This document shows, one piece after another, positions 1 through 22,018 of a stretch of DNA of 29,160 nucleotides. A model generated the notes under the pieces. That model was not told the origin of the DNA. It was given only the letters and a program-made list of their open reading frames with translations, and made no database searches. A program made the position numbers and the translations under genes. Source of the stretch: a virus; the IMG/VR virus record IMGVR_UViG_3300044629_000591, positions 1-29,160 of that record. The stretch is one strand, 5' to 3'. The first letter of the stretch is position 1, and every line of letters begins with the position of its first letter.

Positions 1-1439
1 CGAACACAAAGCCATTCTGAATACTGGTGATCGTAGTGACGAATCTTGTTGTATCCTTCATCCATCCACTCACGAACAATTGGCAAACCCTTTTGATCTG
101 CAAATGATGCAATACCTGTTAGAGATGTACCAATGCGACGATTGCGTTGCATGATACCGTTTGTTTGTGGCCAGTGTGTTGGAACAAGTGTTACAGTCTT
201 TCCATAAAGATATGCAAACTTCAGGGTACGCAGGAAGTCTTCCTTGGATTCATGACGATTTAAGTGCACTTCTACAAGTGTACATAGTTCGTATGATTCC
301 AATGGCTGCTCCGCACATGGGTTAAATCCCATCACACGATAATCCTTACCGTCTGGCGCATCCTTTAGTCGTCCATAATTACGAGCAACATCAAGCCAGA
401 TAAAACCTGGTTCTCCGTTTTCCGTAATTAAATCTACATAGTCTTCGTACTTTGTTCCTACTTCTGCTGAAATAGAATTGTTAGACATCCAAGCCCAGCC
501 TGGATTTTCTGGATCAAATGAGTTACGCTCTGGGAACATCTCTGAATTCTTTAGATTCATGAATGTGTCATCTCCAGCATTTCCCAAAGCAAGTGTTGCT
601 GATCTACGAACATTGCCTGATACCACACAGGTACCAATTAGGTTTACAAGGTCTACGATAGCACGAGAGTCTAGTGTTTCTCCGCCTCTGGAGCCGATTA
701 CACGGTCTATCTGGTCGTGCAACTTGATAAGAGGTGCAGGTCCTGATGCAACGCCTCCAAAGCCCTTAATAGGTGCTCCAAGAGGTCTGATCAAATCATA
801 GTTAAACTTCTGAATACTCTGGTTTGATCTGAGATATGAATTAATGAGAAGTCTAACTGACTCTACCCACCCTTCACGAGTGTCTGGGATTTCGAAGATC
901 TGCTCTGGCTCTGTTGGGGTATAGATTACAAAATTCTTATCCTGTCCTACAGTGTCAAACCCTACACCAATACCAAGCATCAGTGCATCCATAACCCAAG
1001 CAAATAGGGCCCCTGGATCATTTTTGTCAAGGTCCTTTGTAGATACCATGGCACAGTTCTGTAGTGCTGCTGAGTTCTTCTTCTCCATAGTCATAGGAGT
1101 TCCAAATGCCCACATACCTCGTCCTGGTGGAGTCCACTTTAATTCAAACATTCTTTGGAATGCTTCTTGTGCAGACTTCTGAGCCTTATAGTCATTCCAT
1201 GGCAAACGGTTTTCCTTAGCATGATTCTTCTGTACTGAATACATACCCTCGATTACACGACGACAAACCTCATGCCATCTTTCCTTAGTTCCATCTTCCT
1301 TCATACGAGAATATGTACGAATAAAAGTAATTTCTCCAAGTGAATTTTCTGCTGCATCTTTAAAACCAAATGGACTCTCTTGTGATTTGTACTTTTCTAC
1401 GAAATCCTCTGGAAGTTTAAAACTAAAAAAATCTGACAT
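1..1439 (-). CDS. nrdJ: Adenosylcobalamin-dependent (class II, monomeric) ribonucleoside-triphosphate reductase, N-terminal part
   Basis: The enzyme reduces ribonucleoside triphosphates to deoxyribonucleotides using coenzyme B12, supplying precursors for phage DNA synthesis. The frame is open from the ATG at 1439 to the window edge, giving 479 codons, so the C-terminal third is outside. The Lactobacillus-type monomeric signature is visible: NCAMVST with Cys129, GIGVGF near 156-161, SGNVRRSA near 274-281, and NPCAEQPLESYELC with Cys375, Glu377 and Cys386. The 11-residue spacing of the last two cysteines matches the thiyl-radical and redox cysteines of the L. leichmannii enzyme (known family fact), and Cys129 would be the partner cysteine. 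The start is supported by AGAAAGGA about 8 bases upstream and by an extended -10 promoter. No intein or frameshift is seen in the visible part. Confidence 0.95.
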   Translation of the reverse strand, partial: MSDFFSFKLPEDFVEKYKSQESPFGFKDAAENSLGEITFIRTYSRMKEDGTKERWHEVCRRVIEGMYSVQKNHAKENRLPWNDYKAQKSAQEAFQRMFELKWTPPGRGMWAFGTPMTMEKKNSAALQNCAMVSTKDLDKNDPGALFAWVMDALMLGIGVGFDTVGQDKNFVIYTPTEPEQIFEIPDTREGWVESVRLLINSYLRSNQSIQKFNYDLIRPLGAPIKGFGGVASGPAPLIKLHDQIDRVIGSRGGETLDSRAIVDLVNLIGTCVVSGNVRRSATLALGNAGDDTFMNLKNSEMFPERNSFDPENPGWAWMSNNSISAEVGTKYEDYVDLITENGEPGFIWLDVARNYGRLKDAPDGKDYRVMGFNPCAEQPLESYELCTLVEVHLNRHESKEDFLRTLKFAYLYGKTVTLVPTHWPQTNGIMQRNRRIGTSLTGIASFADQKGLPIVREWMDEGYNKIRHYDHQYSEWLCV

Positions 1440-1528: not shown

Positions 1529-2248
1529 CTAGTTAAAATTCTTTTTTTCCCAAGCCCACTTACGATATGCATTTGGATATAGCCCTGCTCCCTTTTTTCT
1601 TTGAGCAGATATAGCATCTGGATCATTATGCATATTAATATCCATTTCCCAAGAATCTCTTTTAAATGGTATTACTTGAAGTATTGGAGTACCCTGCTTT
1701 ATCACACCATCAAAATCTTTTTCTAAAAAGAATGAATTTAATCCAGCAGTTAAAAACTTGTCTGTATCCACTACTGCCTCTATTGCTTTAATAGGGATAT
1801 TTGACTGATGGATTGGCGATGTAAAGAATGAACTATATCCTTTCGGAGTTCTGGTCATCCACATTGGATTAATCCTAAGTAGATCATCTACATAAAAATT
1901 AGACTTAGATGGATAGTGAGATATATGTTCTGAAGAGTGCCAGTTAATCATTATATCTTTAATAAGAGAAAACTCTTCTGAGATACTCCACTCAACTTTT
2001 TTATTTTTAGTATTTATATAAAGATCAACTGGCATCCTTAACAAATATCCCATAGTCATTGCATCAAAAAATGGCAAACATTTTTTTACAGTTAAGTTTA
2101 AATTTCTGTCTTCATCTTCTTTGCTAAAAGAAGAGGGCTGATCTTTATACCAGGTAGGTGATTTCTCTTGTGCAGAAGTTGGATATGGAAAATTATACTC
2201 AAAACCTTTTGTTGGCAATGGCATAAACTCAATTTTATTTGTTAACAC
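1529..2248 (-). CDS. Phage protein of unknown function, paralogue of the 7781-8548 product
   Basis: The function is not known. The protein shares an ordered set of motifs with the product of 7781-8548: WYKD near the N-terminus, CLPFFDAMTMGYLLRMP, TPKGYSSFFTSPIHQ, AVVDTDKF, and GTPILQVIPFKRDSW near the C-terminus. Proteins with this pattern are, from memory, frequent in marine and freshwater phages beside 2OG oxygenases; I do not know a named family for this version. The alternating hydrophobic strands suggest a beta-sandwich or cupin-like fold (inference). The start is chosen at GTG 2248, because GAGGG at 2254-2258 gives proper ribosome-site spacing. GTG 2254 would add two residues but overlaps that site. 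It is the last gene before the reductase promoter. Confidence 0.8.
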   Translation of the reverse strand: MLTNKIEFMPLPTKGFEYNFPYPTSAQEKSPTWYKDQPSSFSKEDEDRNLNLTVKKCLPFFDAMTMGYLLRMPVDLYINTKNKKVEWSISEEFSLIKDIMINWHSSEHISHYPSKSNFYVDDLLRINPMWMTRTPKGYSSFFTSPIHQSNIPIKAIEAVVDTDKFLTAGLNSFFLEKDFDGVIKQGTPILQVIPFKRDSWEMDINMHNDPDAISAQRKKGAGLYPNAYRKWAWEKKNFN

Positions 2249-2294
2249 GACCACCCTCTAACTATAAATATCAGACCAAAAGTGAAAAACAAAA

Positions 2295-2924
2295 TTAATG
2301 AATCCAGTGCTGCGGAACCATAATCTTTTCACCACTCTTTACTAGGTGCGCTGTGTGGTGGTAAGGTGGTGATGGGGGAAACACGATAATGCTTCCTGCT
2401 TTTGGCTTTACAGCAAAAGTATAGTTACCATTTTTTTCTGCTTCTGCAAAATCTGACTCTGGACTAGCCTGACTCAATACACCGTCTGGTGATGCTATAG
2501 TGAAAGATATCTCTCCGCCTTCGTAGTCATCGTTAAGATACATAACAAAAGAAACCTTAAGTCTTTCGTCACCCTCTTGCTGATCAAAGTGTGCTCCCAT
2601 AAATGTTCCTGGCTGATACTTTTTAATTGGGTATTGAGGAAATAACTTTGGCTCATCCACTATTCCTTGAGCCTTAGCATAATCTCTTGCTACATCATCA
2701 AATGCCTTTTGCAAAGTATCGTAAATATACTTATTCTTTTCATCTGTTTCTGATGTTAAAGAAATAGTTTTGTCTGTTCCATAAACGTAGTGCTGACCAC
2801 TGCAGGCCATCCACTCGCCCCAAGGGTCTTTATTATCATTTTCAATTGCCTCAACAAGTTTTTTGGGGTCTTCAATTACGTTTGTGTAATAGTAAACCTT
2901 TTCCTCAAGTATTTCTCTGTCCAT
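2295..2924 (-). CDS. Prolyl-4-hydroxylase-like 2-oxoglutarate/Fe(II) dioxygenase (1)
   Basis: Fe(II)/2-oxoglutarate oxygenases of the P4H type couple decarboxylation of 2-oxoglutarate to hydroxylation of a substrate that cannot be named from sequence. In this 209-residue protein the double-stranded beta-helix core is in the C-terminal half. The metal triad is His112-x-Asp114 and His190, with Lys200 ten residues further as the likely 2-oxoglutarate carboxylate anchor; lysine at this place is normal for prolyl-4-hydroxylases. The linking motif YLNDDYEGGE at 129-138 is shared by all oxygenases in the cluster. The start has a good AAGGAGAT site, which lies just after the stop codon of the next upstream gene, so the two are co-transcribed. 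Confidence 0.9.
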   Translation of the reverse strand: MDREILEEKVYYYTNVIEDPKKLVEAIENDNKDPWGEWMACSGQHYVYGTDKTISLTSETDEKNKYIYDTLQKAFDDVARDYAKAQGIVDEPKLFPQYPIKKYQPGTFMGAHFDQQEGDERLKVSFVMYLNDDYEGGEISFTIASPDGVLSQASPESDFAEAEKNGNYTFAVKPKAGSIIVFPPSPPYHHTAHLVKSGEKIMVPQHWIH

Positions 2925-2935
2925 TTTGTATCTCC

Positions 2936-3598
2936 TTAGTATTTATTTTTTTCATAAAACCCTGTGACCTTCATAAAGCCTACAGTTACATATCTAATAG
3001 GTCCCTCTCCAACAGTCCTAACGCCATGCTCGTACTCTTCGTTTCCTGGAAAAACAAGCAAGGTTCCTGGTTTTGGCCTTAGATCTGAGTCTTCTTTGTT
3101 TTGGAAGAACAACGTTCCGTCTTTATAGTCGTCATTAATATAAAGTATAGCAGCATATCTAATAGATGGGTCTGTATGCTGGTCTGTATGTGATTTTAAC
3201 TGAACACCTGGCTGCATTCTTTGCATAGTTCCAAATCCACCGAGTTCTAGGGATGGGTCTGCTAATTCAAGCAACTTCGAAAGTCTATTATTTAGGGTAA
3301 CGCTTATCTTTCTATTAGTTATATCTAAATTTTTATCTTCCCAGCCTACCGTGATTTCAAACTTTCCTTCTGCCACTAAATTCTCTACATCGTCTCTTCC
3401 AAATTTTTCCATGCAAAATCTAGAAAGATTTTTAGTATACTCAATAGACCAATCCTCGTTATCGGTTGTTTCAATTATTTCTAAAATTTCCTGAAGTTCT
3501 TCTTCTTCTAAAAAGTCTTTTACAAACAAAACATGATCATGAAAAACTTCAACATCATATCCAGCATCTTCAAATTCTTTTTTTAAAAAAACTTCCAT
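2936..3598 (-). CDS. Prolyl-4-hydroxylase-like 2-oxoglutarate/Fe(II) dioxygenase (2)
   Basis: This 220-residue protein has the same catalytic core as its neighbours: His137-Thr-Asp139, YINDDYKDG at 153-161, a GTLLVFPGN strand, distal His191 and Arg202 for 2-oxoglutarate. The N-terminal 100 residues are acidic, partly helical and differ from the other copies, which could mean a different substrate (inference). The ATG follows directly on the TAA of the upstream oxygenase gene with no gap. This implies translational coupling, with a GGTGAT ribosome site inside the upstream gene. Confidence 0.9.
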   Translation of the reverse strand: MEVFLKKEFEDAGYDVEVFHDHVLFVKDFLEEEELQEILEIIETTDNEDWSIEYTKNLSRFCMEKFGRDDVENLVAEGKFEITVGWEDKNLDITNRKISVTLNNRLSKLLELADPSLELGGFGTMQRMQPGVQLKSHTDQHTDPSIRYAAILYINDDYKDGTLFFQNKEDSDLRPKPGTLLVFPGNEEYEHGVRTVGEGPIRYVTVGFMKVTGFYEKNKY

Positions 3599-4345
3599 TT
3601 ATAGATCACCTACTTTGTACTTATTACCATCGGCATCTAGTTTCCATCCCTGCTTTAGCAACTCTTGCCACTCTGCTCTTTCAATTTCTTGCTTGGCTCT
3701 TGTTTCTTTCATCTCTTCAGCCCATGCATCTCTTAACTCTTGTGGATAAGCATCTTCTTCTCTGTCATCCCAGAACGAACCTACAGTGTATCTTACTCCA
3801 CTTGTTATCAGTGTTACTTCGTGCATATTGTTAAATCCACCGTCAAATGCAGCAAGCATTCCAACTTTAGGCTGTATATCTATATCTTGATCTGGGAACT
3901 GCAACATTCCTCCCTCAAAGTCATCGTTCAAATACAAAAATGCTGCGTATCTACTTCGTGTAAAAGCGCCAGAGTTACCGTGTTCGTCTGTGTTATCTGA
4001 ATGCTTTCTTGCATACGCTCCTGGCTCCCACTTTTGTGTGTGGTATCCAATTTGAGAAATTATCTTTGGGTCAAGGTCGTGAACGCTTGCAACAGCATTA
4101 ATAATGCCTTGCTTCATTTGTGAAAATATGTCGCTTGGCAACCCTTCATTTTCTACATGTTCATCATTGTCTTGTGGCAATACTGAAGAGTAAGACTCAT
4201 AAAAAGATATTGGCATCCAAGTAATCAGTCCAAGTTCTGCATGCTTATCTAAAACCTTTACAAGTTTAGCAGCAGTGTCTGCATCAATAAAGTTTTCGTA
4301 AACAACTATATCTTTTGTTATTCTTTTTTTGTTTTCTAGATTCAT
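3599..4345 (-). CDS. Prolyl-4-hydroxylase-like 2-oxoglutarate/Fe(II) dioxygenase (3)
   Basis: The metal-binding triad is His115-Ser-Asp117 and His175, followed by Arg185 as the 2-oxoglutarate ligand. FLYLNDDFEGG at 136-146 is the family strand motif. The 248-residue protein has a charged, probably helical C-terminal extension after the catalytic domain, rich in Glu, Lys and Trp, which the shorter copies lack. The start overlaps the stop of the upstream gene by the four bases ATGA, so it is translationally coupled in the 5891-2295 operon. Confidence 0.9.
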   Translation of the reverse strand: MNLENKKRITKDIVVYENFIDADTAAKLVKVLDKHAELGLITWMPISFYESYSSVLPQDNDEHVENEGLPSDIFSQMKQGIINAVASVHDLDPKIISQIGYHTQKWEPGAYARKHSDNTDEHGNSGAFTRSRYAAFLYLNDDFEGGMLQFPDQDIDIQPKVGMLAAFDGGFNNMHEVTLITSGVRYTVGSFWDDREEDAYPQELRDAWAEEMKETRAKQEIERAEWQELLKQGWKLDADGNKYKVGDL

Positions 4346-5220
4346 CTTACTCTCACTCCTTCTGGTATTTCAAATCTATTTGGTATTATCTTATTGTACT
4401 CCTGAATTATGTCATTTTGCATGCTTGCCCAGACATCTTTCCCAAATTCTTTTTCTTTGTCAAACCATTCTTGACTACCTAGGCTGTACTTTCTCCAATA
4501 CATTCTTGCAAAATACTTCTCATTTTCATAGGAAGGAAAGACTCCATGAAGATACACAGTATCCCCCTTCCTTAATACCTCTGGGTGTCCAGAAGGAAAT
4601 ACTAGCCAGTCTCCTGCTTCTGGCTTATATTTTATAAGTTCTCCATTTACAAAAAAGTCAATCTCTCCACCAACATAGTCTTCATTGAAATATGCATTTG
4701 CTGTTATAGCAAATTTATATCCTGGGCTAGGAATTGGCTCTCTTATAAAGTCAGAATGATACGTCATAGACATTATGTCTTCTATATTTTTATGATACTT
4801 ACAGATTGATGGACCATACATTCTCCATAAAAGGATAGAATCTCCATCTTTGGTTTCTATATTTTTTGTTTTGTCAAAATCAAAATCTTTTCCAAATTTT
4901 GAAATATAATGATCTGTAACCTTATCAAAACCTTTTGCCAACTCTAACAAAAAGTATTTCTGATCTTCTTGTATTTGATTGTAAGTTTCTATAGTCTGCA
5001 GGTTTTCATAACTCCAGTCTCTATTAAAATGTTCTCCTGCTGGATAATTAATGTATTTTCCAAACATAGACCACTCGGACCACTCTCCAAAAACTTGATC
5101 GCCTTCAACCTCTGAAGAATTTTTTATAATACTATACATCCTTGCTGGATCATTAAAAACATTTTTATAAACAATAATATTTGGGTATATTTCTACAAAA
5201 TGAAACTCTTCATTTATCAT
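4342..5220 (-). CDS. 2-oxoglutarate/Fe(II) dioxygenase (4), long divergent form
   Basis: At 292 residues this is the longest oxygenase of the cluster. The likely triad is His155-Ser-Asp157 and His225, with Lys235 or Arg239 binding 2-oxoglutarate. AYFNEDYVGGEIDFF at 176-190 marks the core. The region before the core is longer than in the other copies, and about 45 residues rich in aromatic and charged side chains follow it. Both ends overlap neighbouring oxygenase genes by ATGA. The divergence suggests a substrate different from that of its neighbours (inference). Confidence 0.85.
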   Translation of the reverse strand: MINEEFHFVEIYPNIIVYKNVFNDPARMYSIIKNSSEVEGDQVFGEWSEWSMFGKYINYPAGEHFNRDWSYENLQTIETYNQIQEDQKYFLLELAKGFDKVTDHYISKFGKDFDFDKTKNIETKDGDSILLWRMYGPSICKYHKNIEDIMSMTYHSDFIREPIPSPGYKFAITANAYFNEDYVGGEIDFFVNGELIKYKPEAGDWLVFPSGHPEVLRKGDTVYLHGVFPSYENEKYFARMYWRKYSLGSQEWFDKEKEFGKDVWASMQNDIIQEYNKIIPNRFEIPEGVRVR

Positions 5221-5891
5221 GGCTGTCTGTCACCAGTATGCTTAACAATTTCCCAAAAAAATGGGCAGGTAAATCTAAGACCACTTTTTATCTCTGTTAC
5301 GCCATGGATATAATTCTTGTCTCCAGGGAAGAAATACGCTGCACCCTTCTTAGGCTTAAACTGAACACCCTGAAGAGGAAAGTACAACTCCCCACCCTCG
5401 TAATCATCATTAAGATAAAATAAACTTGATAGATCATAATTTGGAAAGTCATTAGGAAGTCCTGCATCTGGACCTTCATGAAGTTCTTTATCTGCGTGTG
5501 GCTTTTGGAACTGCCCTGGTAGCCATTTTACAATTGTTGTTCCTGTTGGTATAACCTCAACCTTATAGAACTCTTCAACGATTGGCTTTAATCTTTGAAA
5601 CAATCCCGCAATAACTGGGGCAATGGCTGGATCATTCTTGTCTAGAGTTGGGCTAGTTGCAACCCTGTCTTTCCAGTAGTCTGAGTCATAAACAACTGTA
5701 CCATTTTCATTTACATGGCTTTCTGTTACATCCCAAATGGTTAAAGACTTTGCAGCCTTTTCTAAAAAGTCTATTTCCTCTTGAGTCATAAAGTTTTCTA
5801 ACTCAACTATCATATCTTTGCTGCTTCCAAACCATCCAGAAGGGGTCATAGATGGCTTTCTTACTACAACAGAGGCATTTATATTTTCCAT
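5217..5891 (-). CDS. Prolyl-4-hydroxylase-like 2-oxoglutarate/Fe(II) dioxygenase (5), first gene of a leaderless operon
   Basis: This 224-residue protein carries His132-Ala-Asp134, LFYLNDDYEGGELYFP at 157-172, His196 and Arg206. An insertion of about 20 residues after the HxD motif is rich in Pro, Asp and Gly. The gene has no Shine-Dalgarno. Instead TGATATAAT ends six bases before the ATG, so the transcript should begin at or next to the start codon. It heads the run 5217, 4342, 3599, 2936, 2295, in which genes overlap or abut. A 60-residue frame inside it is only a shadow. Confidence 0.9.
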   Translation of the reverse strand: MENINASVVVRKPSMTPSGWFGSSKDMIVELENFMTQEEIDFLEKAAKSLTIWDVTESHVNENGTVVYDSDYWKDRVATSPTLDKNDPAIAPVIAGLFQRLKPIVEEFYKVEVIPTGTTIVKWLPGQFQKPHADKELHEGPDAGLPNDFPNYDLSSLFYLNDDYEGGELYFPLQGVQFKPKKGAAYFFPGDKNYIHGVTEIKSGLRFTCPFFWEIVKHTGDRQP

Positions 5892-5897
5892 AATTTG

Positions 5898-5906
5898 ATT
5901 ATATCA
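5898..5906 (-). promoter_or_regulatory. Extended -10 promoter, leaderless start of the oxygenase operon
   Basis: Minus-strand TGATATAAT is followed by six bases and then the ATG at 5891. There is no room for a ribosome site downstream of the predicted transcription start. Confidence 0.7.
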
Positions 5907-5919
5907 TAGGATCTTGTCC

Positions 5920-6375
5920 CTACAATTCCCTCTCTATTTCTAGTTGTTTTAAAAATCTTTCTATGTTGAATCTCCAGTTATCTTTTGCAAAAGATGTCAC
6001 TATCTTAATACACACATCCTCATAATCTTCTTTTGTAAGTTTATGCTTTAGTGTATGTAGTGCCTCAACAGTATCAATATAGTTTTGCCTAACAAAAGAT
6101 GGATCTCCAGCGTGGTTTCTTTTTAAAACTTTTGTAAGAGTATTCCCAGATGGCTGATACAAGGATACAGTAAGATAGTCTTTAGCAAATCCTGCATCTT
6201 GATACATTTCATATCCTTCTAGCGCCTGCTCAACATTATCAAAAGAGATTATTGATCTTACTGGAGACTCTCCATCTCTAGACACAGTTATCATATAGTG
6301 ACCAACCTTACCCTCTTTAGCATTTTTAACATAATCGTTAACCATATCATCATGAGTTATATTTAATTCGCTCAT
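5920..6375 (-). CDS. Phage protein of unknown function
   Basis: I do not recognise a family for this 151-residue protein. The N-terminal half contains an alternating strand/helix pattern (HYMITVSRDGE, ISFDNVEQALEGYEMYQDAG, DYLTVSLYQPSG), resembling a small alpha/beta fold that handles time-course or sensor-like input. The C-terminal half is helical and charged, ending FLKQLEIEREL. There is no signal peptide or membrane segment. The start overlaps the DUF6065-like gene by ATGA, and the stop lies 13 bases before the promoter of the next operon, so it is the last gene of the 9261-5920 unit. Confidence 0.75.
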   Translation of the reverse strand: MSELNITHDDMVNDYVKNAKEGKVGHYMITVSRDGESPVRSIISFDNVEQALEGYEMYQDAGFAKDYLTVSLYQPSGNTLTKVLKRNHAGDPSFVRQNYIDTVEALHTLKHKLTKEDYEDVCIKIVTSFAKDNWRFNIERFLKQLEIEREL

Positions 6376-7085
6376 TGTTGACCAGTATTATCCTTTACGC
6401 TAAGTTTTAGAGTCTTAACTTCATGAGAACCCAAAGACTCTTGTTTTTCATTGACTGCATTTCTATACCAGTCTGTCCACTCTCCAGAAGAGTTAAGTAC
6501 CTGTGCTGCCTCTCCATATGATATGTTGGCTTCTATTCTTTTTCTATCATCATCTTTATAGTTAACAACATCTATAGATGTATTGTTCAGTTCTGACAAT
6601 GATATTGGTATGATTGTTGCTAATGGCGTACCTGCTTTTATTACTACATTCTTGTTTGCAGACTTTGCCTTTATTGCTAGTGGCAACGGATTGTCATAAA
6701 ATGATGTACTAATTAGGTTTGACATTGTTTCAAAATCATCATTAAAGTAGTTGACTGGATTAATAGTAAAAAGGCTAACATTTTGATCTGTTCTAAATAC
6801 TAAGCCAGTGTTAAAACTAATAGATGATTGACCTCTTCCAGAATACGACCCTTCTGGTGCAGATATTATGTTAATATGATCTTGACTCTGATCATTGATG
6901 CCATCCCACAAGAACTCTATATCTTCTTTACAAAAAATGCTCCACCCAACAACGTTTGACTGTGTTACTGGAAAACATCTATATGCGTGACCTTCTGATG
7001 TGTTGTCCATCCAATCTCTTTTTATAGACATTGGTGCAATATTAAATGGTGCACCATTCATTTTTTCTACTGAGATATCAAACAT
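6372..7085 (-). CDS. DUF6065-like protein
   Basis: The 237-residue protein shows the pattern I associate with DUF6065: a Pro-rich start, KRDWMDNTSEGHAYRCFPV at 23-41, GWSIFC, a LWDGI turn, FNTGLVFRTDQNVSLF, a middle Pro-x-Asn motif, and KAGTPLATIIPIS near 170. The biochemical role of the family is unknown. The late GTPxxxIIP segment resembles GTPxLQxLPFKR of the two paralogues at 1529-2248 and 7781-8548, so all three may be variants of one beta-rich fold (inference). The start is a TAATG overlap with the upstream oxygenase gene. Confidence 0.75.
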   Translation of the reverse strand: MFDISVEKMNGAPFNIAPMSIKRDWMDNTSEGHAYRCFPVTQSNVVGWSIFCKEDIEFLWDGINDQSQDHINIISAPEGSYSGRGQSSISFNTGLVFRTDQNVSLFTINPVNYFNDDFETMSNLISTSFYDNPLPLAIKAKSANKNVVIKAGTPLATIIPISLSELNNTSIDVVNYKDDDRKRIEANISYGEAAQVLNSSGEWTDWYRNAVNEKQESLGSHEVKTLKLSVKDNTGQQ

Positions 7086-7768
7086 TACTCGTTATCCCAC
7101 TTTGGATCGTACATGTCTGGTGTGTGAAACTTTTTGCTATAGTCAAGCATTGTAACAATAGAATATTTTGTTCCTGAGTGTACTGGCATTGCTTGATGAG
7201 GATACATAAAATTAGATGGAAATATAAAAAGATCTCCAGCCTCTGGTTTAATATTTAAACCCTGCAACCTAAAGAAAAGTTCTCCGCCCTCGTAGTCGTC
7301 ATTAACATATGCAACAAGAGAAACTGTACAGTTGTATGAGTATCCGTGATCGTGGTGTTCTTTGAAGTGCTGTCCTGGACCATACTTGATAAAGTTAAAA
7401 GCCTCCCAATACTTTAGTGGCATAATGTTGTGATTTTTTCTATAATCTTCAACCGCTTCAAACTGTGCATCATATATATCTTGCCAAAGAGACTGTAACT
7501 TCAGAGACTCTTCACTAGGATCATGCTCTATGTCTGACTTCTTATACTTAAAGTCAACACAATCTCTATAGTCTGGCATTAATTGCTGGTATCCTACATA
7601 TGCTGGCATCCAGTGATACTTGTTTCCTTCTGGAGACAACTTTCCATATTCAGCAACTGAGCCAATTGCATCTTCAATCCTGTTTATTACGTCAAACTCT
7701 TTTTTAATGACATTCTTGTAAAGATATATGCCATTTCCAAGGTCTTTTTTCTCTGTCCATGTTTGCAT
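7085..7768 (-). CDS. Prolyl-4-hydroxylase-like 2-oxoglutarate/Fe(II) dioxygenase (6)
   Basis: The catalytic residues are His138-His-Asp140, His191 and Lys201. AYVNDDYEGGELFF at 153-166 is the core strand. The 227-residue protein is a close paralogue of the product of 8548-9261: both have VDFKYK, YxEAFNFxKY, HFxxHxDHG and NCTVS in the same order, suggesting a recent duplication compared with the other copies. The ribosome site AAGGAAT lies at a proper distance from the ATG, in the short space after the upstream gene. Confidence 0.9.
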   Translation of the reverse strand: MQTWTEKKDLGNGIYLYKNVIKKEFDVINRIEDAIGSVAEYGKLSPEGNKYHWMPAYVGYQQLMPDYRDCVDFKYKKSDIEHDPSEESLKLQSLWQDIYDAQFEAVEDYRKNHNIMPLKYWEAFNFIKYGPGQHFKEHHDHGYSYNCTVSLVAYVNDDYEGGELFFRLQGLNIKPEAGDLFIFPSNFMYPHQAMPVHSGTKYSIVTMLDYSKKFHTPDMYDPKWDNE

Positions 7769-7780
7769 TTTTTATATTCC

Positions 7781-8548
7781 TTATCTATATTCTCTTCTTG
7801 ACCATACTTTATTTTTGTATACCCCGCCATCTGGCTGACGGTAAAACTCCATGTTCTTAACCATTTTATCATAAATTTTAGACTGATCTAAAATTTCTAT
7901 TTCGTGATCCCAGTTTTCTCTTTTAAAAGGAAGAATCTGAAGATATGGTGTACCTGCTGGAAGTGTTCCTTCCCATCCTTCAGCAATAAAAAATGGAAAA
8001 CTTCCAAGAAGATGAACTTTGTCTGAATCAACTACTCCAGTAGTATTTAAAAATGGAAGATCAAATCTATTCATTGGTGTCATAAACAAAGCACTGTATC
8101 CTTCTGGCAATTCTAATCCCCAGTCAGCAGACCATGCAAAGTGATATCTATAGTATCCGAGTGGATGCTCAAACTGTGGCATTGGTGGTCTTTGAGTACA
8201 AAAATCTTTATGTCTTGGATCTTCAACCTTGACATTAATGTTTCCATATGCATCTTTAAAAAAAGTCAAATCGCAGGGAGTCTTAAAAACATAACCAGTT
8301 GAAAATGCATCCATGATTGCAGGACATGCTTTCCATGTTGGAATCTTTCCGTAGTCATCTTTTGTGCCTTCTTTTGCAACTGGGCAGATTTCTTTTGTTG
8401 CTTTATAGTAATCTCCATTTGGCATTTTTGCAAACCTATCTGCTTCCTTATACCATTCGGGAATTACAGCCTGGGTTGGTCCTGGAACAGAAAGACTATC
8501 CTTATTTAGCCATGGCCTAAATGATCTAAATATTGCAACTAAAGACAC
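7781..8548 (-). CDS. Phage protein of unknown function, paralogue of the 1529-2248 product
   Basis: This 255-residue protein is related to the 1529-2248 product: PEWYKEAD at 30-37, CPAIMDAFSTGYVFKTP, LPEGYSALFMTPMNRFDLP, GVVDSDKV, and GTPYLQILPFKRENW. No catalytic motif can be named. Its position between two closely related oxygenase genes and the repeat of the same pairing at 1529-2924 suggest a functional link with the oxygenases. The start is GTG in a TAGTG overlap with the upstream stop codon, so it is translationally coupled. Confidence 0.8.
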   Translation of the reverse strand: MSLVAIFRSFRPWLNKDSLSVPGPTQAVIPEWYKEADRFAKMPNGDYYKATKEICPVAKEGTKDDYGKIPTWKACPAIMDAFSTGYVFKTPCDLTFFKDAYGNINVKVEDPRHKDFCTQRPPMPQFEHPLGYYRYHFAWSADWGLELPEGYSALFMTPMNRFDLPFLNTTGVVDSDKVHLLGSFPFFIAEGWEGTLPAGTPYLQILPFKRENWDHEIEILDQSKIYDKMVKNMEFYRQPDGGVYKNKVWSRREYR

Positions 8549-9261
8549 TACTTGTGTCCTAGTTCATTAATATCTGTCATTACCACAACACAATACTTGG
8601 TTCCTTTTTTCATTGGTAAGGAAGCATGTTCATAAATGTAATTTGAAGGACAAAGAATAATGTCTCCTATTTTGGGAGAATGTGTATAGTTATCCATTCT
8701 TGGAAACTTAATTTCTCCACCATCATAGTCCTCGTTTATATATATTACAGCAGATACGGTGCAGTTATACATTGGACCATGGTCTGCATGTATATTGAAG
8801 TGTGTTCCTTCTCCTTCATACTTTACAAAGTTAAATGCCTCATAATAAACTACATTAATTCCCCAGTAACGTGCATAATCGTCAACACAAAATTTTAACT
8901 TTTGATAGATCTCTTCGTGTAGATCAATAAGTTCAGAATTATGCTCATCTCTTGGCCCCAAGTTTTCTTGTTTATATTTAAAATCTACAGCGTCTCTAGC
9001 CTTTTTAATTGGAACATCAGAGTTAGTTACCTTTGCCTCTGACCATTTATATTTTCCATTACCGCCCAAGTTTGACTCAAGAGTATTTATATATCTTTCA
9101 GAATCCTCTTTTGAAAAAACATTCCTATATAGGTTAATTCCTAGCGCTGGGTTTTCAACTAAAATATTGTTACCAATAGTTTTTGATGGATATCTGTTTA
9201 TTGTTGTTTCTGACCTATCCTTAGTGAACCATGGGGTTTCATTTTCATCATATGTATTCAT
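8548..9261 (-). CDS. Prolyl-4-hydroxylase-like 2-oxoglutarate/Fe(II) dioxygenase (7), first gene of the cluster
   Basis: The triad is His158-Ala-Asp160 and His212, with Lys222 as 2-oxoglutarate anchor and VIYINEDYDGGEIKFP at 172-187. It resembles the 7085-7768 product closely, but has about 25 extra N-terminal residues rich in polar side chains. The ribosome site is AGGGAGA seven bases before the ATG. A TGGTATACT promoter lies 32 bases upstream, in the right arm of a terminator-like hairpin, so this gene starts the 9261-5920 transcription unit. Confidence 0.9.
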   Translation of the reverse strand: MNTYDENETPWFTKDRSETTINRYPSKTIGNNILVENPALGINLYRNVFSKEDSERYINTLESNLGGNGKYKWSEAKVTNSDVPIKKARDAVDFKYKQENLGPRDEHNSELIDLHEEIYQKLKFCVDDYARYWGINVVYYEAFNFVKYEGEGTHFNIHADHGPMYNCTVSAVIYINEDYDGGEIKFPRMDNYTHSPKIGDIILCPSNYIYEHASLPMKKGTKYCVVVMTDINELGHK

Positions 9262-9340: not shown

Positions 9341-10252
9341 TTATCCGAGTTGTGGATCCCACTTACCTCCACCGAAGAACGGCCCAAAACTTGGGAAGAA
9401 CGGTGGGAAGAACGGGAAGAATGGGAAGAACGGGAAGAACGGTGGGAAGAATGGGAAGAATGGGAAGAACGGTGGGAAGAACGGGAAGAATGGGAAGAAC
9501 GGGAAGAATGGAGGGAAGAACGGGAAGAATGGTGGGAAGAATGGAGGGAAGAACGGGAAGAATGGTGGGAAGAATGGAGGGAAGAACGGGAAGAATGGTG
9601 GGAAGAACGGTGGGAAGAATGGAGGGAAAAATGGCGGGAAGAATGGGAAGAACGGAGCAATAGTGGTTACGTTATTAGATGCTGGAGATGCTGATGAATC
9701 TCCGTTTGCATTAATTGCTACAACTGTATATGTCTGTGCTGTATTTGCTTCTTGAGGAACAGAAACAGAAAGGGAAGCAGTTGTTCCAGTCTTTCCATCT
9801 GACGATGTCCATCGATATCCAGTAATTGATTTTCCGCCGTTTACTGGTGCTGTCCAGGAAACTGTGTCTTGATCAACCCCTGCTGTTGCTGTTGGGGCAC
9901 TTGGTGTTGCTGGTACGGTTGTTACTGTTACAGCAGATGAAGCATCAGAAGCAGCAGAAGTTCCAGCAGCATTAGTCGCCGTTACTGTAAATGTTGGTGT
10001 TGCAGATGAAGCAATACCAGTTACAGTAATTGGAGATGATGCTCCAGTTGCTGTTTGTCCTGTGCTTGCTGTTACTGTAAAGGAGGTAGCAGCAGGTGAG
10101 AGTTCTGGTAATGAAAACGCTACAGAAACTGCACCATTATTAAATGCTCTACCAGTTCCTACATCTGTTCCAGTAACACCTGTTGGCTTTAATGGCTCCA
10201 AAAAGTCATTTGACGCTTGGGCCTTTTTACCTATTTTCTTACCTGCTGCCAT
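9341..10252 (-). CDS. Fibronectin-III/Ig-like structural protein with a C-terminal Pro-Phe-Phe repeat tail
   Basis: This 303-residue protein starts with a basic MAAGKKIGKK and then has two FnIII/Ig-like beta domains, at about 23-113 and 114-199. The second contains VSWTAP, GYRWTSSDG and YTVVAINANG. Residues about 200-288 are an uninterrupted run of PFF and PPFF units, ending SFGPFFGGGKWDPQLG. FnIII/Ig domains are common on phage surface proteins (established), so a decoration or fibre role is likely. The Pro-Phe repeat has no function I can name; it is strongly hydrophobic and should be extended. The ribosome site is AGGAGAT. The reverse-strand Lys-Asn-Gly frame over the repeat is a by-product. 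Confidence 0.85.
   Translation of the reverse strand: MAAGKKIGKKAQASNDFLEPLKPTGVTGTDVGTGRAFNNGAVSVAFSLPELSPAATSFTVTASTGQTATGASSPITVTGIASSATPTFTVTATNAAGTSAASDASSAVTVTTVPATPSAPTATAGVDQDTVSWTAPVNGGKSITGYRWTSSDGKTGTTASLSVSVPQEANTAQTYTVVAINANGDSSASPASNNVTTIAPFFPFFPPFFPPFFPPFFPPFFPFFPPFFPPFFPFFPPFFPPFFPFFPPFFPFFPFFPFFPPFFPFFPFFPPFFPFFPFFPFFPPFFPSFGPFFGGGKWDPQLG
9391..9655. repeat. G/A-rich 9- and 12-base tandem repeat coding for Pro-Phe-Phe
   Basis: The plus strand repeats GGGAAGAAC or GGGAAGAAT, sometimes with an extra GGT or GGA, for about 265 bases. One strand is almost all purine. The frame is kept because units are multiples of three. Slippage or recombination here would change the repeat length without a frameshift. 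Confidence 0.9.
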
Positions 10253-16818: not shown

Positions 16819-16852
16819 AAAAGCACCTATTGTTAATTCTGTAGGTGCTTTT
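16819..16852. terminator. Bidirectional terminator between convergent genes
   Basis: AAAAGCACCTA at 16819-16829 pairs with TAGGTGCTTTT at 16842-16852, an 11-base stem with a 12-base loop, and U tracts on both sides. It serves the plus-strand lysozyme gene and the minus-strand oxygenase gene, whose stop codon it touches. Confidence 0.9.
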
Positions 16853-17439
16853 TAGTTTCTCAAAATTAAATTAATTGCTACTCGTGGTGCCTTTAAGGTC
16901 TCAACCTCATGTGCAAGATTTTTTGGCACAAAAATAAAGTCACCCTCTACAACATGATGCTCGTTTTCTAAATCTTCTCCTGTGCGCCAAATCATCTCAC
17001 CCTTAACAACCCACTGGAATTGATCAACGTAGTCTCTGTGCTTGCTTCCAACTACTCCTCTGTTTTTCATCAAAGATACTAAACAAAAATTTCCAGTATA
17101 TATTTCTTCTGAGTACTGAGAAAGCCCCCACTGAGTCACTTGACCAAGTTCTGGGATTATTGACATATAAAGATCTTGTGGGTCATAAAGTTGAAATGCC
17201 ATTCTTGACCAAAATCTACACTTTAATCTCATGTCAGAAGACTCACCTTCAACAAAATCACTCAAAAGATATGACCTATCTGGAAAGGATGCTAAGTCTT
17301 CGTCAACATAATTAGAAACTACTGACATTATTGTATCTAATGACGGCAGAGTTGTAAAGACATCTTTAAAAACATGTATTCTGTTCTCATCTATTGCTTG
17401 TTGAACTATGTTCATATCTATTAATGGCAAATTTGACAT
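16852..17439 (-). CDS. Cupin/JmjC-like Fe(II) oxygenase
   Basis: The C-terminal half of this 195-residue protein is a cupin-type beta barrel: SKHRDYVDQFQWVVKGEMIW at 132-151 supplies His134 and Asp136, a GDFIFVP turn follows, and AHEVE supplies His177. That is the Fe(II) facial triad of cupin and JmjC-like 2-oxoglutarate oxygenases, different from the P4H proteins elsewhere in the window. Members of this wider class hydroxylate protein side chains, but the substrate here is unknown. It is the last gene of a unit with the glycosyltransferase (8-base gap) and the eighth P4H-like enzyme, ending at the shared terminator. Confidence 0.7.
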   Translation of the reverse strand: MSNLPLIDMNIVQQAIDENRIHVFKDVFTTLPSLDTIMSVVSNYVDEDLASFPDRSYLLSDFVEGESSDMRLKCRFWSRMAFQLYDPQDLYMSIIPELGQVTQWGLSQYSEEIYTGNFCLVSLMKNRGVVGSKHRDYVDQFQWVVKGEMIWRTGEDLENEHHVVEGDFIFVPKNLAHEVETLKAPRVAINLILRN

Positions 17440-17447
17440 TTTATATT

Positions 17448-18479
17448 TTAACTTTCTTTTTCATTTATTTTATCAATATTTTGCTGAATTAAGTTTAGCG
17501 TTTCTTCTTCAGACAAATCAACAACATTTATATAAGAGTGATTTACTCCAGAATAGTCGGCAAACTCTTTATAGTGATATCTGTGGTTTGGTATTGCTGA
17601 AATTTCAAACATATTTGTTTCTTTGTTTCCCCAAAAAGAATGAAATATCCAAGTTCCAGAAGTTCCTGCAATATTTTTTGCAGAACTAAAAATTTTTATC
17701 TGTTCTATTAAACTGTAATCTTCTGGATATATAATTTTCCATCCATTATCTTTAAATTTATTTTGTATGATGTCCTCTTTTTCACAGTATCTCCATTTAG
17801 CAAAAAAGAAGTCTCCTTTGTCTTTCTCGGATAGAACTTCTTTGTTTGAATAAAATTCAATCTGGCTTTTACGAAAGTTGTTAAATCTTTCTCTTGAAAC
17901 AAAAATGTTTCCTTCTTTTTTGTCATTATAAAATTCTTTAAAATTTTCTTTTAAAATATCTATTGCCAAATAGTTATACTTGAAATGTTCGCTTTCTCCA
18001 CAGGGAAGTTCTCCATTTCCTCCTCCTGCAAAACAAGTGCAAAATGGAAAATACTGCAGTGATCTTGTTGCCCCATTACTTGAATAAAACTCCTGTGGGA
18101 ATGTAAGATTCATGTCAAAAAACATTATTACCTTTTCAAAAGAATAGTTTCCAATTGAAATATCAAACACTTCTGAATTTTCATACCCAAGAAAATACAT
18201 TTGATCTATTGTTACTTTATTTTGATTGAAGTGTCCACTTTGGGCTTCATAAAAAAATGGCTTTATGTTTTTATATTTTAATTGTAAAATTTTAAATTGT
18301 CCATATATGTCCATCATTGAGTGACCAAATGCAGAGTGTGTTTGAAATAAATAAGTTTCTCCAGGTATTTGGATTACTGGACCATCATTATTTTTTATAG
18401 AAAAGTTACTGATAGACACACTATCAAAAACATAGTCAAAAAAATTTTCTTGTGTAATACCATCACATGACAGGATCAT
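17448..18479 (-). CDS. GT61 (DUF563)-like glycosyltransferase
   Basis: The 343-residue protein matches the layout of family GT61/DUF563: an FVSRERFNNFRK segment at about 193-204, an acidic segment, then IIYPEDYSLIEQIKIFSSA at 249-267 and NIAGTSGTW with a following His at 269-280. These are the nucleotide-sugar-binding and acceptor-side motifs of the family. An early HSAFGHSMMDIYG segment is also typical. It would transfer a sugar, cytoplasmically, to a protein or polysaccharide acceptor that is not known. The start is the ATG at 18479, which overlaps the upstream stop by ATGA; TTG at 18488 is less likely. Confidence 0.75.
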   Translation of the reverse strand: MILSCDGITQENFFDYVFDSVSISNFSIKNNDGPVIQIPGETYLFQTHSAFGHSMMDIYGQFKILQLKYKNIKPFFYEAQSGHFNQNKVTIDQMYFLGYENSEVFDISIGNYSFEKVIMFFDMNLTFPQEFYSSNGATRSLQYFPFCTCFAGGGNGELPCGESEHFKYNYLAIDILKENFKEFYNDKKEGNIFVSRERFNNFRKSQIEFYSNKEVLSEKDKGDFFFAKWRYCEKEDIIQNKFKDNGWKIIYPEDYSLIEQIKIFSSAKNIAGTSGTWIFHSFWGNKETNMFEISAIPNHRYHYKEFADYSGVNHSYINVVDLSEEETLNLIQQNIDKINEKES

Positions 18480-19072
18480 GTTAACCAACTAACTACTGCA
18501 TACCGTGTTCCCTCTGTTACTGGAGAAACTGAATGATTATAAACGTAGTTTGAAGGGAAAAATATCATCTCATTTGCCTTTGGTTTATACATTAAGTTAA
18601 ACCTTGGAAAACATATTTCTCCACCTTCGTAGTTTTCGTTAAAATAATAAACATATGATATTTTTCTAGGAAAATCACGATGATCATCTATATGGTTTAC
18701 GAATTGCTGTCCTACGCTATATTTTAAAACACTGTAATCTTCATGAAACTCTGTTGTTGCTTGATGCTCTGCTTTATAATCCTCTTCTATTGGCTTAAAA
18801 TTAGATAAAAATATATTAGAAAGGCTCCCAGAAACGGCATCTTGTACTGATTGAAAATCAGTTAAAATATGATCTCTATATGGCACTGGAAAAGTCAAAG
18901 TGTCCCTATACTTTTTGTCTACCTCTATGCCGTTTTCACCTTTTATTGATGATTCAATCCAAGACAAAATCGGTCCAGAAAGACTTTCTTCAATATCATT
19001 AACTAATAAATCATGATTTGGTATAACGTCCGAATAAACAAAAATGCCTGGCGCTAAAAGTCGTTTTTCCAT
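18476..19072 (-). CDS. Prolyl-4-hydroxylase-like 2-oxoglutarate/Fe(II) dioxygenase (8)
   Basis: This 198-residue protein carries His127-Ile-Asp129, YYFNENYEGGEICFP at 142-156, His180 and Arg190, a complete catalytic set. It is closest in core pattern (FPSNYVYxH, KISYVYYF) to the 8548-9261 and 7085-7768 products, although it lies 9 kb away. The ATG at 19072 overlaps the upstream TAA as TAATG; the GTG two codons before is possible but less likely. Coupling to the glycosyltransferase gene by ATGA suggests that hydroxylation and glycosylation are made in fixed ratio (inference). Confidence 0.9.
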   Translation of the reverse strand: MEKRLLAPGIFVYSDVIPNHDLLVNDIEESLSGPILSWIESSIKGENGIEVDKKYRDTLTFPVPYRDHILTDFQSVQDAVSGSLSNIFLSNFKPIEEDYKAEHQATTEFHEDYSVLKYSVGQQFVNHIDDHRDFPRKISYVYYFNENYEGGEICFPRFNLMYKPKANEMIFFPSNYVYNHSVSPVTEGTRYAVVSWLT

Positions 19073-19308
19073 TACCACTTACCTAAAGGACATGTTGCTT
19101 TTTGTAATTTTGTTTTTGCTGCCATAAAACATCCACACTTCTTGCATTGTTTTGTTAAATTCATAAGTTCTGGACATGACTGACATATTGAATATCTTTC
19201 AGTAGATAATGCTTCGTCTGCCCATTCAATATTTGGATTTACAAGATCCCATGGTCTTGTTTCTCCAAGACTTTCTTTATATCTTTCCCAAAGGGATTTT
19301 TGTTCCAT
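19072..19308 (-). CDS. Small four-cysteine zinc-ribbon-like phage protein
   Basis: This 78-residue protein has an N-terminal helix with Trp and Tyr residues, followed by SICQSCPELMNLTKQCKKCG, then CFMAAKTK and a C-terminal CPLGKW. CxxC-x8-CxxCxC is a probable structural zinc site. The pattern CP-G-KW at the end is one I have seen in small phage proteins near structural or modification genes. Its function is not known; it could be an adaptor for the oxygenase or glycosyltransferase with which it is coupled. No ribosome site is evident. Confidence 0.75.
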   Translation of the reverse strand: MEQKSLWERYKESLGETRPWDLVNPNIEWADEALSTERYSICQSCPELMNLTKQCKKCGCFMAAKTKLQKATCPLGKW

Positions 19309-19564: not shown

Positions 19565-22018
19565 TTAATTAAAGCAAGCACCCTGCCAGTAAGTGCCTCC
19601 ATAGTTTACACAGTTCTGACAGTCTGCACAGGCCCCACCAGCATAATCCTCACACCCTGGTGTTGGGCAGCCTGTTGCAGGAGTTACGGCTGGAGTTACT
19701 GCAGGTGTTACTGCAGGTGTTACAGCAGGAGTAACTGCTGGAGTTACTGCTGGAGTCACGGCTGGAGTTACTGCAGGAGTCACGGCTGGAGTTACTGCAG
19801 GAGTAACAGCAGGAGTCACGGCTGGAGTTACTGCAGGTGTAACAGCAGGTGTAACAGCAGGTGTAACAGCAGGTGTAACAGCAGGTGTTACAGCAGGTGT
19901 TACTGGACATGCTGGAACTGTAGGATATGCTGGGTAGGATCCAGTTGCACAAACTGTTGCATAATCATTACACAAAGATCCAGAAGCATCATAATTTACT
20001 GTTCCACGGTCTGTACTTCCATCCGCATATCTTGTTGAGCAGTACCAAGTTGTTGCTGGTGTTACTGCTGGTGTTACTGCTGGAGTTACTGCGGGAGTAA
20101 CTGCTGGTGTTACAGCAGGAGTAACTGCAGGAGTAACTGCAGGAGTAACTGATGGACATGAATAAGGACTACTTACTGCGAATGTACATTCTGTTGAACT
20201 AGGTCCACCAGTAAAGGATTGATCTGATGCAAACGGACCAGATGTTGAACATCCCCCACCTTGAACCAAAGTCTTACACCACCATTGTCCTACGGCTGGT
20301 GTAACGGCTGGTGTAACGGCTGGTGTAACGGCTGGTGTAACGGCTGGTGTAACGGCTGGTGTAACTGCTGGTGTAACTGCAGGTGTAACTGGCAAAGTAC
20401 AACTTTGTGGTGTTGTAAATACATCACCAGACAAATTGTTTCCTGCTTCGTTTGAAGCACAAGCGGCTTGTAGCCCTGTTACTGCGGCATTTGAATCTGA
20501 ATATGAACCTTGAACTCCAATACCATTAGTACAGCATGCATAATAAGTTGTTGTAGTTGCTGGTGTTACAGCAGGAGTAACTGCTGGTGTTACTGCTACT
20601 GGGCAATTTGTTGGCAATGCAGGCATTGAAATAGTTGAGCAAGAGAAGTTTGTTCCGCCTCCTCCAGGGAATCCAGCAACAACAGCAGCATATGCAGCAC
20701 AAGCATTATTTATGTCTGTTGCTACGCTATTGTTTGCATCAACAACAAATTCGTCTGAAGTTGCTACTCCTTGATAACAATATGTCATGTATGCAGTTCC
20801 TGTTGTTACTGGTGCTGGTGTAACGGCTGGTGTAACTGCAGGTGTAACGGCTGGTGTAACGGCTATAGGGCAGTTTGGATCTGCTGGAGCAGAGTTTGCT
20901 TGACATACAAAGTTAGTTAAGTTTGGATAAGCCTGAAGTGCCAAAGCCTCTATTTCTGCACAAGATGCTCCAGTGTTATTTCCTATTACGCTACCATTTG
21001 AACAGAATTTTGCATAATAAATTGTAGCAGGTGTTACTGCAGGTGTTACTGCAGGTGTTACTGCAGGTGTTACTGCAGGTGTTACTGCAGGTGTTACTGC
21101 AGGTGTTACTGCAGGTGTTACTGCAGGTGTTACTGCAGGTGTTACTGCTGGAGTAACTGCTGGAGTAACTGCAGGTGTAACTGCAGGTGTTACTGCTGGA
21201 GTTACTGCTGGAGTTACTGCTGGAGTTACTGCAACTCCTTCATAAATGTCTCCATATACAATCCAAGAGTTTGTGTCAATTTTTAAAAGTGTTGCTTTGC
21301 CATATTGAGCATCAATCCACATTTGATTATTTTTGCTATTAATAGTAACACCGTTTGCTGGACTGAAAATTGTTCTTCCATAATTAAACTGAATCAAGTT
21401 ATAACTATATCCAACTGGAATAGCAACAGATGTATTGTTTGGAACAGTCACAGTCATTGTGATTGGTGGATTTGGGTCTCCAGGAATTGGAGAACCTTGT
21501 ATTTGAGATGCAAGCAATATCGTTTTTGAAATATCGTCAAGACTTAAAGAAAAACTATCTGTTTTTGTTGTAACTAGAGAAGAGTTTGAAATTCTTGGCT
21601 CAACATCAAACCTTAAGTCAACAAGGTTCCAGTCAAGACCTGTTCCAGCAAGACTTGGATATCCTCCTGTAGCACCACTAATTGCATCGCCTATTGCGCT
21701 ATCAACATATTCTTCTGTTGCCAATAAAGATGTGTCGTCTATACCGTGAACACCTGTAGTATCTGCAGAATGTGCTGCTATTGCTGCATTTCTATTTATT
21801 ACCTCTGCTGCATCTGCATCTACAAGGTTTTGAAGGTGTTTTGCAATTGATGGGTTTGGAAGAAGAGTAGGGTTTGTATTTGCACCATCATATGTATAAG
21901 ATCCGTAATGATAAAGTCTTAGTGCTGCCTGAATATCTGCTGCATCTGATAAACCTGGGATTTTGGTGTTGAAGAGCCCGTTACCACTAACGGTATTATC
22001 AATATTCTCTTCTGCCAC
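19565..22018 (-). CDS. Mosaic fibre protein of Val-Thr-Pro-Ala repeats and five four-cysteine modules
   Basis: This 817-residue protein begins like a tail fibre: SADTTGVHGIDDTSLLATEE near 93-112, then a beta domain ending WIVYGDIYEG near 250-260 that is shared with the 602-residue fibre. From about 263 on, six blocks of VTPA repeats (about 263-331, 386-404, 474-488, 543-576, 623-656, 705-782) separate five modules. Each module starts with an aromatic-rich strand, has four cysteines, and ends with a Cys-Pro or Cys-Thr-Leu-Pro turn. The last 35 residues have six cysteines. The start is GTG at 22018, with AAGGG upstream. Pairs of disulfides outside the cell are likely (inference). Homology of the modules is inferred by eye. 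Confidence 0.85.
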   Translation of the reverse strand: MAEENIDNTVSGNGLFNTKIPGLSDAADIQAALRLYHYGSYTYDGANTNPTLLPNPSIAKHLQNLVDADAAEVINRNAAIAAHSADTTGVHGIDDTSLLATEEYVDSAIGDAISGATGGYPSLAGTGLDWNLVDLRFDVEPRISNSSLVTTKTDSFSLSLDDISKTILLASQIQGSPIPGDPNPPITMTVTVPNNTSVAIPVGYSYNLIQFNYGRTIFSPANGVTINSKNNQMWIDAQYGKATLLKIDTNSWIVYGDIYEGVAVTPAVTPAVTPAVTPAVTPAVTPAVTPAVTPAVTPAVTPAVTPAVTPAVTPAVTPAVTPAVTPAVTPATIYYAKFCSNGSVIGNNTGASCAEIEALALQAYPNLTNFVCQANSAPADPNCPIAVTPAVTPAVTPAVTPAPVTTGTAYMTYCYQGVATSDEFVVDANNSVATDINNACAAYAAVVAGFPGGGGTNFSCSTISMPALPTNCPVAVTPAVTPAVTPATTTTYYACCTNGIGVQGSYSDSNAAVTGLQAACASNEAGNNLSGDVFTTPQSCTLPVTPAVTPAVTPAVTPAVTPAVTPAVTPAVTPAVGQWWCKTLVQGGGCSTSGPFASDQSFTGGPSSTECTFAVSSPYSCPSVTPAVTPAVTPAVTPAVTPAVTPAVTPAVTPATTWYCSTRYADGSTDRGTVNYDASGSLCNDYATVCATGSYPAYPTVPACPVTPAVTPAVTPAVTPAVTPAVTPAVTPAVTPAVTPAVTPAVTPAVTPAVTPAVTPAVTPAVTPAVTPAVTPAVTPATGCPTPGCEDYAGGACADCQNCVNYGGTYWQGACFN
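19673..19904. repeat. 12-base tandem repeat, block 1 (C-terminal VTPA block)
   Basis: About nineteen 12-base units of the form GGAGTTACTGCT or GGTGTAACAGCA, each coding for Val-Thr-Pro-Ala on the minus strand. The third codon positions vary, so copies have drifted. Confidence 0.9.
20053..20150. repeat. 12-base tandem repeat, block 2 (VTPA)
   Basis: About eight units of the same 12-base type, between cysteine modules four and five. Confidence 0.9.
20291..20390. repeat. 12-base tandem repeat, block 3 (VTPA)
   Basis: About eight units. Most are the identical GGTGTAACGGCT, which suggests recent local expansion. Confidence 0.9.
20556..20597. repeat. 12-base tandem repeat, block 4 (VTPA)
   Basis: Three to four units between cysteine modules two and three. 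Confidence 0.85.
20807..20862. repeat. 12-base tandem repeat, block 5 (VTPA)
   Basis: Four to five units between cysteine modules one and two. Confidence 0.85.
21025..21232. repeat. 12-base tandem repeat, block 6 (N-terminal VTPA block)
   Basis: About seventeen units. The first ten or so are the identical GGTGTTACTGCA, the most homogeneous stretch, pointing to recent expansion. Confidence 0.9.

Follow-up and report, generated by a model that had tools for sequence, protein, structure and literature searches.

The 2-oxoglutarate (2OG) oxygenases of aquatic phages have so far been classed among the auxiliary metabolic genes, with no substrate assigned to them. Cyanophages carry up to five of them per genome, and a metabolic or signalling role has been proposed (Sullivan et al. 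2010, PMC3037559). The T4-like cyanophage enzymes (PHROG 61; Kyanoviridae) belong to the same superfamily as those described here and occur in adjacent pairs, for example in S-SCSM1 and Sf-FS3. This study analyzed a DNA of 29,160 bases from an uncultivated aquatic phage (IMG/VR record IMGVR_UViG_3300044629_000591, hereafter the window) that contains a partial class II ribonucleotide reductase (RNR) gene at one end and, at 2295–9261 on the minus strand, seven intact 2OG-Fe(II) oxygenase open reading frames (ORFs) next to a gene encoding a fibre-like protein with an FFP repeat. The seven gene products are probably active, functionally distinct oxygenases of the prolyl hydroxylase type, with a single structural protein of the virus, the upstream FFP fibre, as their common substrate. 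This reading starts from computed results: intact catalytic residues, a predicted prolyl 4-hydroxylase (P4H) fold for one enzyme, old clades in a kept gene order, and the co-occurrence of the FFP tract with the cluster. The clustered oxygenases were named slots A–G, and an eighth copy outside the cluster was named H. The genes concerned, all on the minus strand, are listed in the order of transcription.

9341–10252, minus strand: FFP-repeat fibre-like protein, the proposed substrate; its N-terminal part is fn3/PKD-like, and an (FFP/FFPP)n tract forms its C-terminus.
9386–9655, minus strand: 90-residue proline/phenylalanine repeat tract (PFFPFFPPFFPP...) of this protein.
8548–9261, minus strand: slot G, 2OG-Fe(II) oxygenase (Pfam PF13640, alignment, orthologues, tree).
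7085–7768, minus strand: slot F, 2OG-Fe(II) oxygenase (PF13640, orthologues, tree; predicted prolyl-4-hydroxylase fold).
5217–5891, minus strand: slot E, 2OG-Fe(II) oxygenase (PF13640, 105 unique orthologues, tree).
4342–5220, minus strand: slot D, 2OG-Fe(II) oxygenase, the most divergent (alignment, 62 orthologues, tree).
3599–4345, minus strand: slot C, 2OG-Fe(II) oxygenase (PF13640, orthologues, tree).
2936–3598, minus strand: slot B, 2OG-Fe(II) oxygenase (PF13640, orthologues, tree).
2295–2924, minus strand: slot A, 2OG-Fe(II) oxygenase (PF13640, orthologues, tree).

The oxygenase genes are transcribed in the order G, F, E, D, C, B, A, with two DUF6065/phrog_7084 genes and one gene for a 151-aa protein between the slots, and the fibre-like gene lies 79 bases upstream of slot G. 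The intergenic gaps from G to A measure −4 to +28 bases, which is consistent with a single transcript for this run. Promoter and terminator scans revealed no excess over shuffled sequences.

The alignment revealed the HxD...H triad and a lysine or arginine 2OG anchor in every window copy. The preliminary description of this DNA had concluded from these residues that none of the seven genes looked dead, and the orthologues bear this out: both histidines and the aspartate were invariant (100%) in the 60–105 unique orthologues of each slot (A 83, B 60, C 78, D 62, E 105, F 83, G 62), at pairwise identities down to 23%. The anchor residue was lysine in slots A, F, and G and arginine in slots B, C, and E; in slot D it was lysine in 95% and arginine in 4%. 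The curated PF13640 cut-off was passed by seven of the eight copies (six of the seven in the cluster); slot D scored 24.2 bits against a cut-off of 27 but could still be aligned. Slot D was missing from some clusters. In the L024 contig (L101:18764–19534), a glutathione-peroxidase-like gene (PF00255) stands between slots E and C and slot D is missing; ORFs similar to this gene were found in L017, L053, L057, and L180.

A profile of the eight copies matched a bacterial P4H first among PDB entries (5hv0, 1e-11), followed by prolyl 3-hydroxylase 1, a viral P4H, and PHD2. Structure prediction, which the preliminary description had proposed for all copies, was performed among the oxygenases for slot F only. 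The slot F model (pLDDT 90.4) matched prolyl hydroxylases almost throughout the matches listed (Z 16–19), and its double-stranded beta-helix fold was nearest to known P4H structures (Z 18–19). The matches included the algal P4H with a (Ser-Pro)5 peptide (3gze; Z 18.9, 2.5 Å, 174 residues), PHD2, the Pseudomonas putida P4H (4iw3; Z 18.1), and 5v7y. These findings suggest that slots A–G encode prolyl-hydroxylase-type enzymes that look catalytically intact, and fold and family point to action on proline. Sugars, lipids, small molecules, or non-proline residues of virion proteins (e.g., Phe, His, or Cys) are unlikely substrates because among solved structures the nearest relatives hydroxylate peptidyl proline and the protein linked to the cluster carries a proline repeat, even though PF13640 is chemically diverse, slot D lies far from the P4H consensus, and FkbM methyltransferase and GT61 genes are present in the window.

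We compared the cluster with its relatives among the viral contigs of IMG/VR, of which 80 loci were examined; the collection scans comprise the matches listed only, and the frequencies are not population estimates. The preliminary description had judged so many intact copies unusual unless a search found such clusters to be ordinary in related phages. At least five oxygenases were present in 61 of the 80 related loci; the cluster is genuine and conserved, and it is nothing unusual among the phages of its group. When each gene was assigned to the best-matching window copy, the order G-F-E-D-C-B-A recurred across related loci, and identity was mostly 45–95% within a slot versus 20–40% between slots. 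A tree of the kind proposed earlier was built from 153 rows, including all eight window copies and six cyanophage 2OG proteins and no cellular homologue. The slots formed separate, mostly well-supported clades and not a single recent one. The cyanophage copies, which are 25–42% identical to the slots over part of their length, fell outside slots A–G; the deep order was weakly resolved, with several long branches. Slots F and G were sister clades (support 99), and the grouping of C with E was weaker. The genes at 7085 and 8548 (slots F and G) had been taken for recent duplicates, but the two clades are only 40% identical and both are present in nearly all related phages, so their duplication is old.

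Gene dosage was rejected as an explanation because of these slot-specific clades. Each slot appears to be its own old clade, and since these clades keep a fixed order, a division of roles is much more probable than a dosage effect. The preference of the preliminary description for divided substrates thus survives in part; because of the adjacent FFP-repeat fibre gene, which it had missed, the substrates may be positions of one protein and not different proteins. Turnover of host 2-oxoglutarate with a shift in nitrogen or oxygen signalling, the role that Sullivan et al. (2010, PMC3037559) proposed for cyanophages carrying as many as five 2OG oxygenases, is extremely improbable here: bulk turnover predicts interchangeable copies, whereas the slots keep their order, their own lysine or arginine anchors, and separate clades.

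The candidate substrate, the fibre-like protein, ends in a tract of the PFFP/FFPP type that contains only proline and phenylalanine; its repeat is FFP/FFPP and not the GXY of a collagen-like substrate. Homologues with FFP, PPHF, or PPGFF[AS] tracts were found upstream of most related clusters, and some FFP-type homologues have a tail rich in cysteine or a Hint-like domain. Hint-like (self-processing) ends were observed in the fn3 fibres at L083:3556–4989, L042:2738–4033, and L080:2297–3769 and in the cluster-negative L354, L364, L377, and L387; Pfam Hint_2 matched one such end, weakly. The 117 distinct tracts used mixed proline codons (CCA/CCG/CCT) and phenylalanine codons (TTC/TTT), with CCA and TTC preferred. 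This mixture fits a translated tract and is by itself no proof of selection on the protein. The FFP fibre protein had no tblastn match in the phage collection with the low-complexity filter on, and the FFP DNA pattern yielded 11 stretches in the bacterial genomes of 85,000 species, counted as raw DNA matches.

The presence or absence of the cluster was scored by using the adjacent RNR gene as an anchor independent of the cluster. Among the RNR relatives, 42 loci covered the full 10 kb upstream of the RNR, and a cluster was defined as at least four oxygenases. All 20 loci with an FFP tract had at least four oxygenases upstream, and 19 of the 22 without a tract had fewer than four (Fisher 3e-9 overall). 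A DNA pattern search of whole records located FFP outside the fetched locus in the three exceptions and detected none in the 19 cluster-negative records. Combined, the FFP tract was present in 23/23 cluster-positive and 0/19 cluster-negative RNR records; the tract of the positive record L363 is diverged and was recognised by the protein pattern but not by the strict DNA pattern. These counts contain contig duplicates (e.g., L350/L351, L364/L365, L390/L395, and L405/L407), and dropping one of each pair left the complete separation unchanged. In 12 of the 19 negatives, the homologous fn3 fibre had a Hint-like, YSFTP, or FGFSPF end instead. The alternative aromatic repeats YSFTP and FGFSPF at the fibre C-terminus of phages without the cluster are represented by L350:5177–6229 and L383:6669–7781.

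The fold alone would also suit oxygenases that act on host proteins (e.g., EF-Tu or ribosomal proteins) and reprogram the cell, with the FFP gene a mere neighbour, as bacterial P4Hs of the same fold bind and modify EF-Tu, 4iw3 and 5v7y are among the slot F matches, and PHROG 61 is classed as auxiliary or host takeover. We regard this explanation as improbable, because the presence of the cluster tracks the C-terminal type of the fibre gene in otherwise similar phages and seven separately conserved enzymes with host targets need not vanish together with the FFP tail.

The association was also examined from the side of the repeat. Contigs were selected by FFP codons, and 48 records were searched, with loci whose cluster had already been seen left out. 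At least four PF13640 genes were present in 22 of the 28 records of at least 30 kb, a share that is truly higher given the loci left out, compared with 1 of 37 control contigs selected by collagen GXY codons (Fisher 6e-11). A collagen-like fibre was rejected as the linked substrate, as the collagen-like gene of the window occurs in cluster-positive and cluster-negative records alike. Next to the RNR, the DNA resembles a swapped tail-fibre cassette, and linkage alone yields co-occurrence if the FFP fibre and the oxygenases share a recombination cassette without functional dependence. Such hitch-hiking is very unlikely, since the same link is seen in distant cassettes whose oxygenases differ (L129, L135, L148, and L166) and in the FFP-anchored set, and slot G and the lone-proline context were lost together, albeit in few independent events. 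The RNR protein is 95–99% identical across many contigs (L342–L417) in which the adjacent fibre cassette is swapped, and this suggests that the site beside the RNR is a recombination hot spot.

Slot G was present in cassettes with a lone proline (FPFF contexts) and missing where only PP contexts occurred. A stricter count on the slot E tree gave 47 with both, 13 with neither, and 2 mixed. L363, one of the 13 with neither, had been scored as having slot G in the first count, and both mixed cases, L388 and L392, are relatives of L363; the slot G scoring of this clade depends on thresholds. About two independent transitions lie behind the pattern, which was noticed post hoc and prompts the hypothesis that slot G is dedicated to the lone proline of FFPFF.

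On the basis of modification of the FFP fibre, the following mechanism can be outlined. The seven enzymes would be made during infection, and their target would be the FFP/FFPP C-terminus of the fn3 fibre-like protein. Each enzyme would act on its own proline position or context, namely the first or second proline of PP or a lone proline, and the product, a rod rich in hydroxyproline, would surpass bare poly-FFP in solubility and stiffness. As with the chemistry, the substrate, and the division by position, we infer a location in the virion and an effect on solubility or adhesion. Some relatives carry an O-methyltransferase-like (FkbM) gene or one for a short-chain dehydrogenase next to the cluster, and the products of these genes might modify the newly made hydroxyls. 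In its strictest form, the mechanism would be an assembly line of seven regiospecific prolyl hydroxylases, one for each Phe/Pro repeat position, that make a hydroxyproline-rich virion fibre, with slot G possibly suited to the lone proline of FFPFF; we offer this form tentatively.

Several points weigh against modification of the FFP fibre by the seven enzymes. Seven exceed the expectation for a repeat with two or three proline contexts, and prolyl activity is predicted from fold and family only. Of the 28 FFP records with a length of at least 30 kb, six have 0–3 oxygenases. Several cluster-free records carry short FFP runs within other proteins, so the mere presence of FFP does not call for the enzymes. 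Finally, the genes are adjacent, and if they were transferred together without being functionally coupled, the same co-occurrence would result.

The phages that carry the cassette are numerous in metagenomes. WhiB, an actinobacterial regulator, was identified in 12 of the 33 long records, so part of the group likely has actinobacterial hosts; the closest RNR in the phage collection was that of DSL-LC01, a phage predicted to infect Actinomycetia. A tblastn search with slots A, D, E, and F against the 50,697-record phage collection retrieved no close relative and no equivalent cluster. Gp23 was not found in 14 long records, but the controls were also silent, so this result carries little weight against T4-like membership. 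The L102 contig encodes a sheath protein, and the L091–L095 contig encodes a long tape-measure protein with no sheath recognised among its ORFs; the cassette may occur in phages of more than one tail type.

The other genes of the cassette and the window are as follows.

7781–8548, minus strand: phrog_7084 protein, DUF6065-related, with a predicted dUTPase-like beta-clip (PHROG, model).
6372–7085, minus strand: DUF6065 protein (PF19541, E 7e-29).
5920–6375, minus strand: 151-aa protein with no Pfam or PHROG match.
1529–2254, minus strand: third phrog_7084/DUF6065-like protein, between the cluster and the RNR.
3–1439, minus strand: class II ribonucleotide reductase, partial, running off the window.
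18476–19078, minus strand: H, the eighth 2OG-Fe(II) oxygenase, beside a GT61 glycosyltransferase and outside the conserved slots.

The families of the 7781–8548 and 6372–7085 genes were each present in 23/23 cluster-positive and 0/19 cluster-negative records. The corresponding counts were 11/23 and 0/19 for the 151-aa family, 8/23 and 0/19 for the FkbM-like methyltransferase, and 10/23 and 0/19 for the short-chain dehydrogenase; the families were named after the members that were scanned. The 1529–2254 gene is not cassette-specific, because homologues sit at this place in many cluster-negative records too. The model of the 7781–8548 protein (pLDDT 93) matched dUTPases in Foldseek (best E 4e-4), and VIA-align gave a best Z of 9.7 (5.1 Å, 121/255 residues) and a Z of 9.2 for 1smc_B (2.6 Å, 112 residues). 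As a guess, the DUF6065/phrog_7084 protein could be a scaffold or a substrate-presenting subunit; distant relatives of it were found in haloarchaeal tailed viruses. Near H, a protein with long VTPA repeats (TPAVTPAV) at 19565–22018 is a possible second substrate, and a cupin-like protein with the GT61 glycosyltransferase at 16852–18488 may form a separate modification module.

Searches of the open-access literature turned up no account of FFP repeats or of an oxygenase array like this one; the enzyme family is known, and the array and its likely substrate appear to be new. The FFP fibre offers a concrete, testable viral substrate for phage 2OG oxygenases, and the cluster offers seven related enzymes whose site specificity possibly differs. 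If the proposal is true, hydroxyproline-rich protein would be a phage building material. A viral parallel is vCPH of PBCV-1 (5c5t), which has the same fold as the slot F model (Z 17.1, 2.5 Å, 159 residues) and shares the idea of a virus hydroxylating a proline-rich protein; however, it is a single enzyme of a eukaryotic algal virus, is named for collagen, and belongs to no array linked to a Phe/Pro repeat. The bacterial P4Hs that act on EF-Tu (P. putida PPHD, 4iw3; Bacillus anthracis P4H, 5hv0) have the same fold and catalytic residues but are single housekeeping or regulatory enzymes that are not clustered with a fibre gene. In plants and algae, several P4H paralogues act on the low-complexity proline repeats of hydroxyproline-rich glycoproteins (extensins and arabinogalactan proteins), which are then further decorated, and one of the closest structural matches of slot F is the algal P4H with (Ser-Pro)5 (3gze). 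The phage cassette differs in its Phe/Pro repeat and its cytosolic bacterial context.

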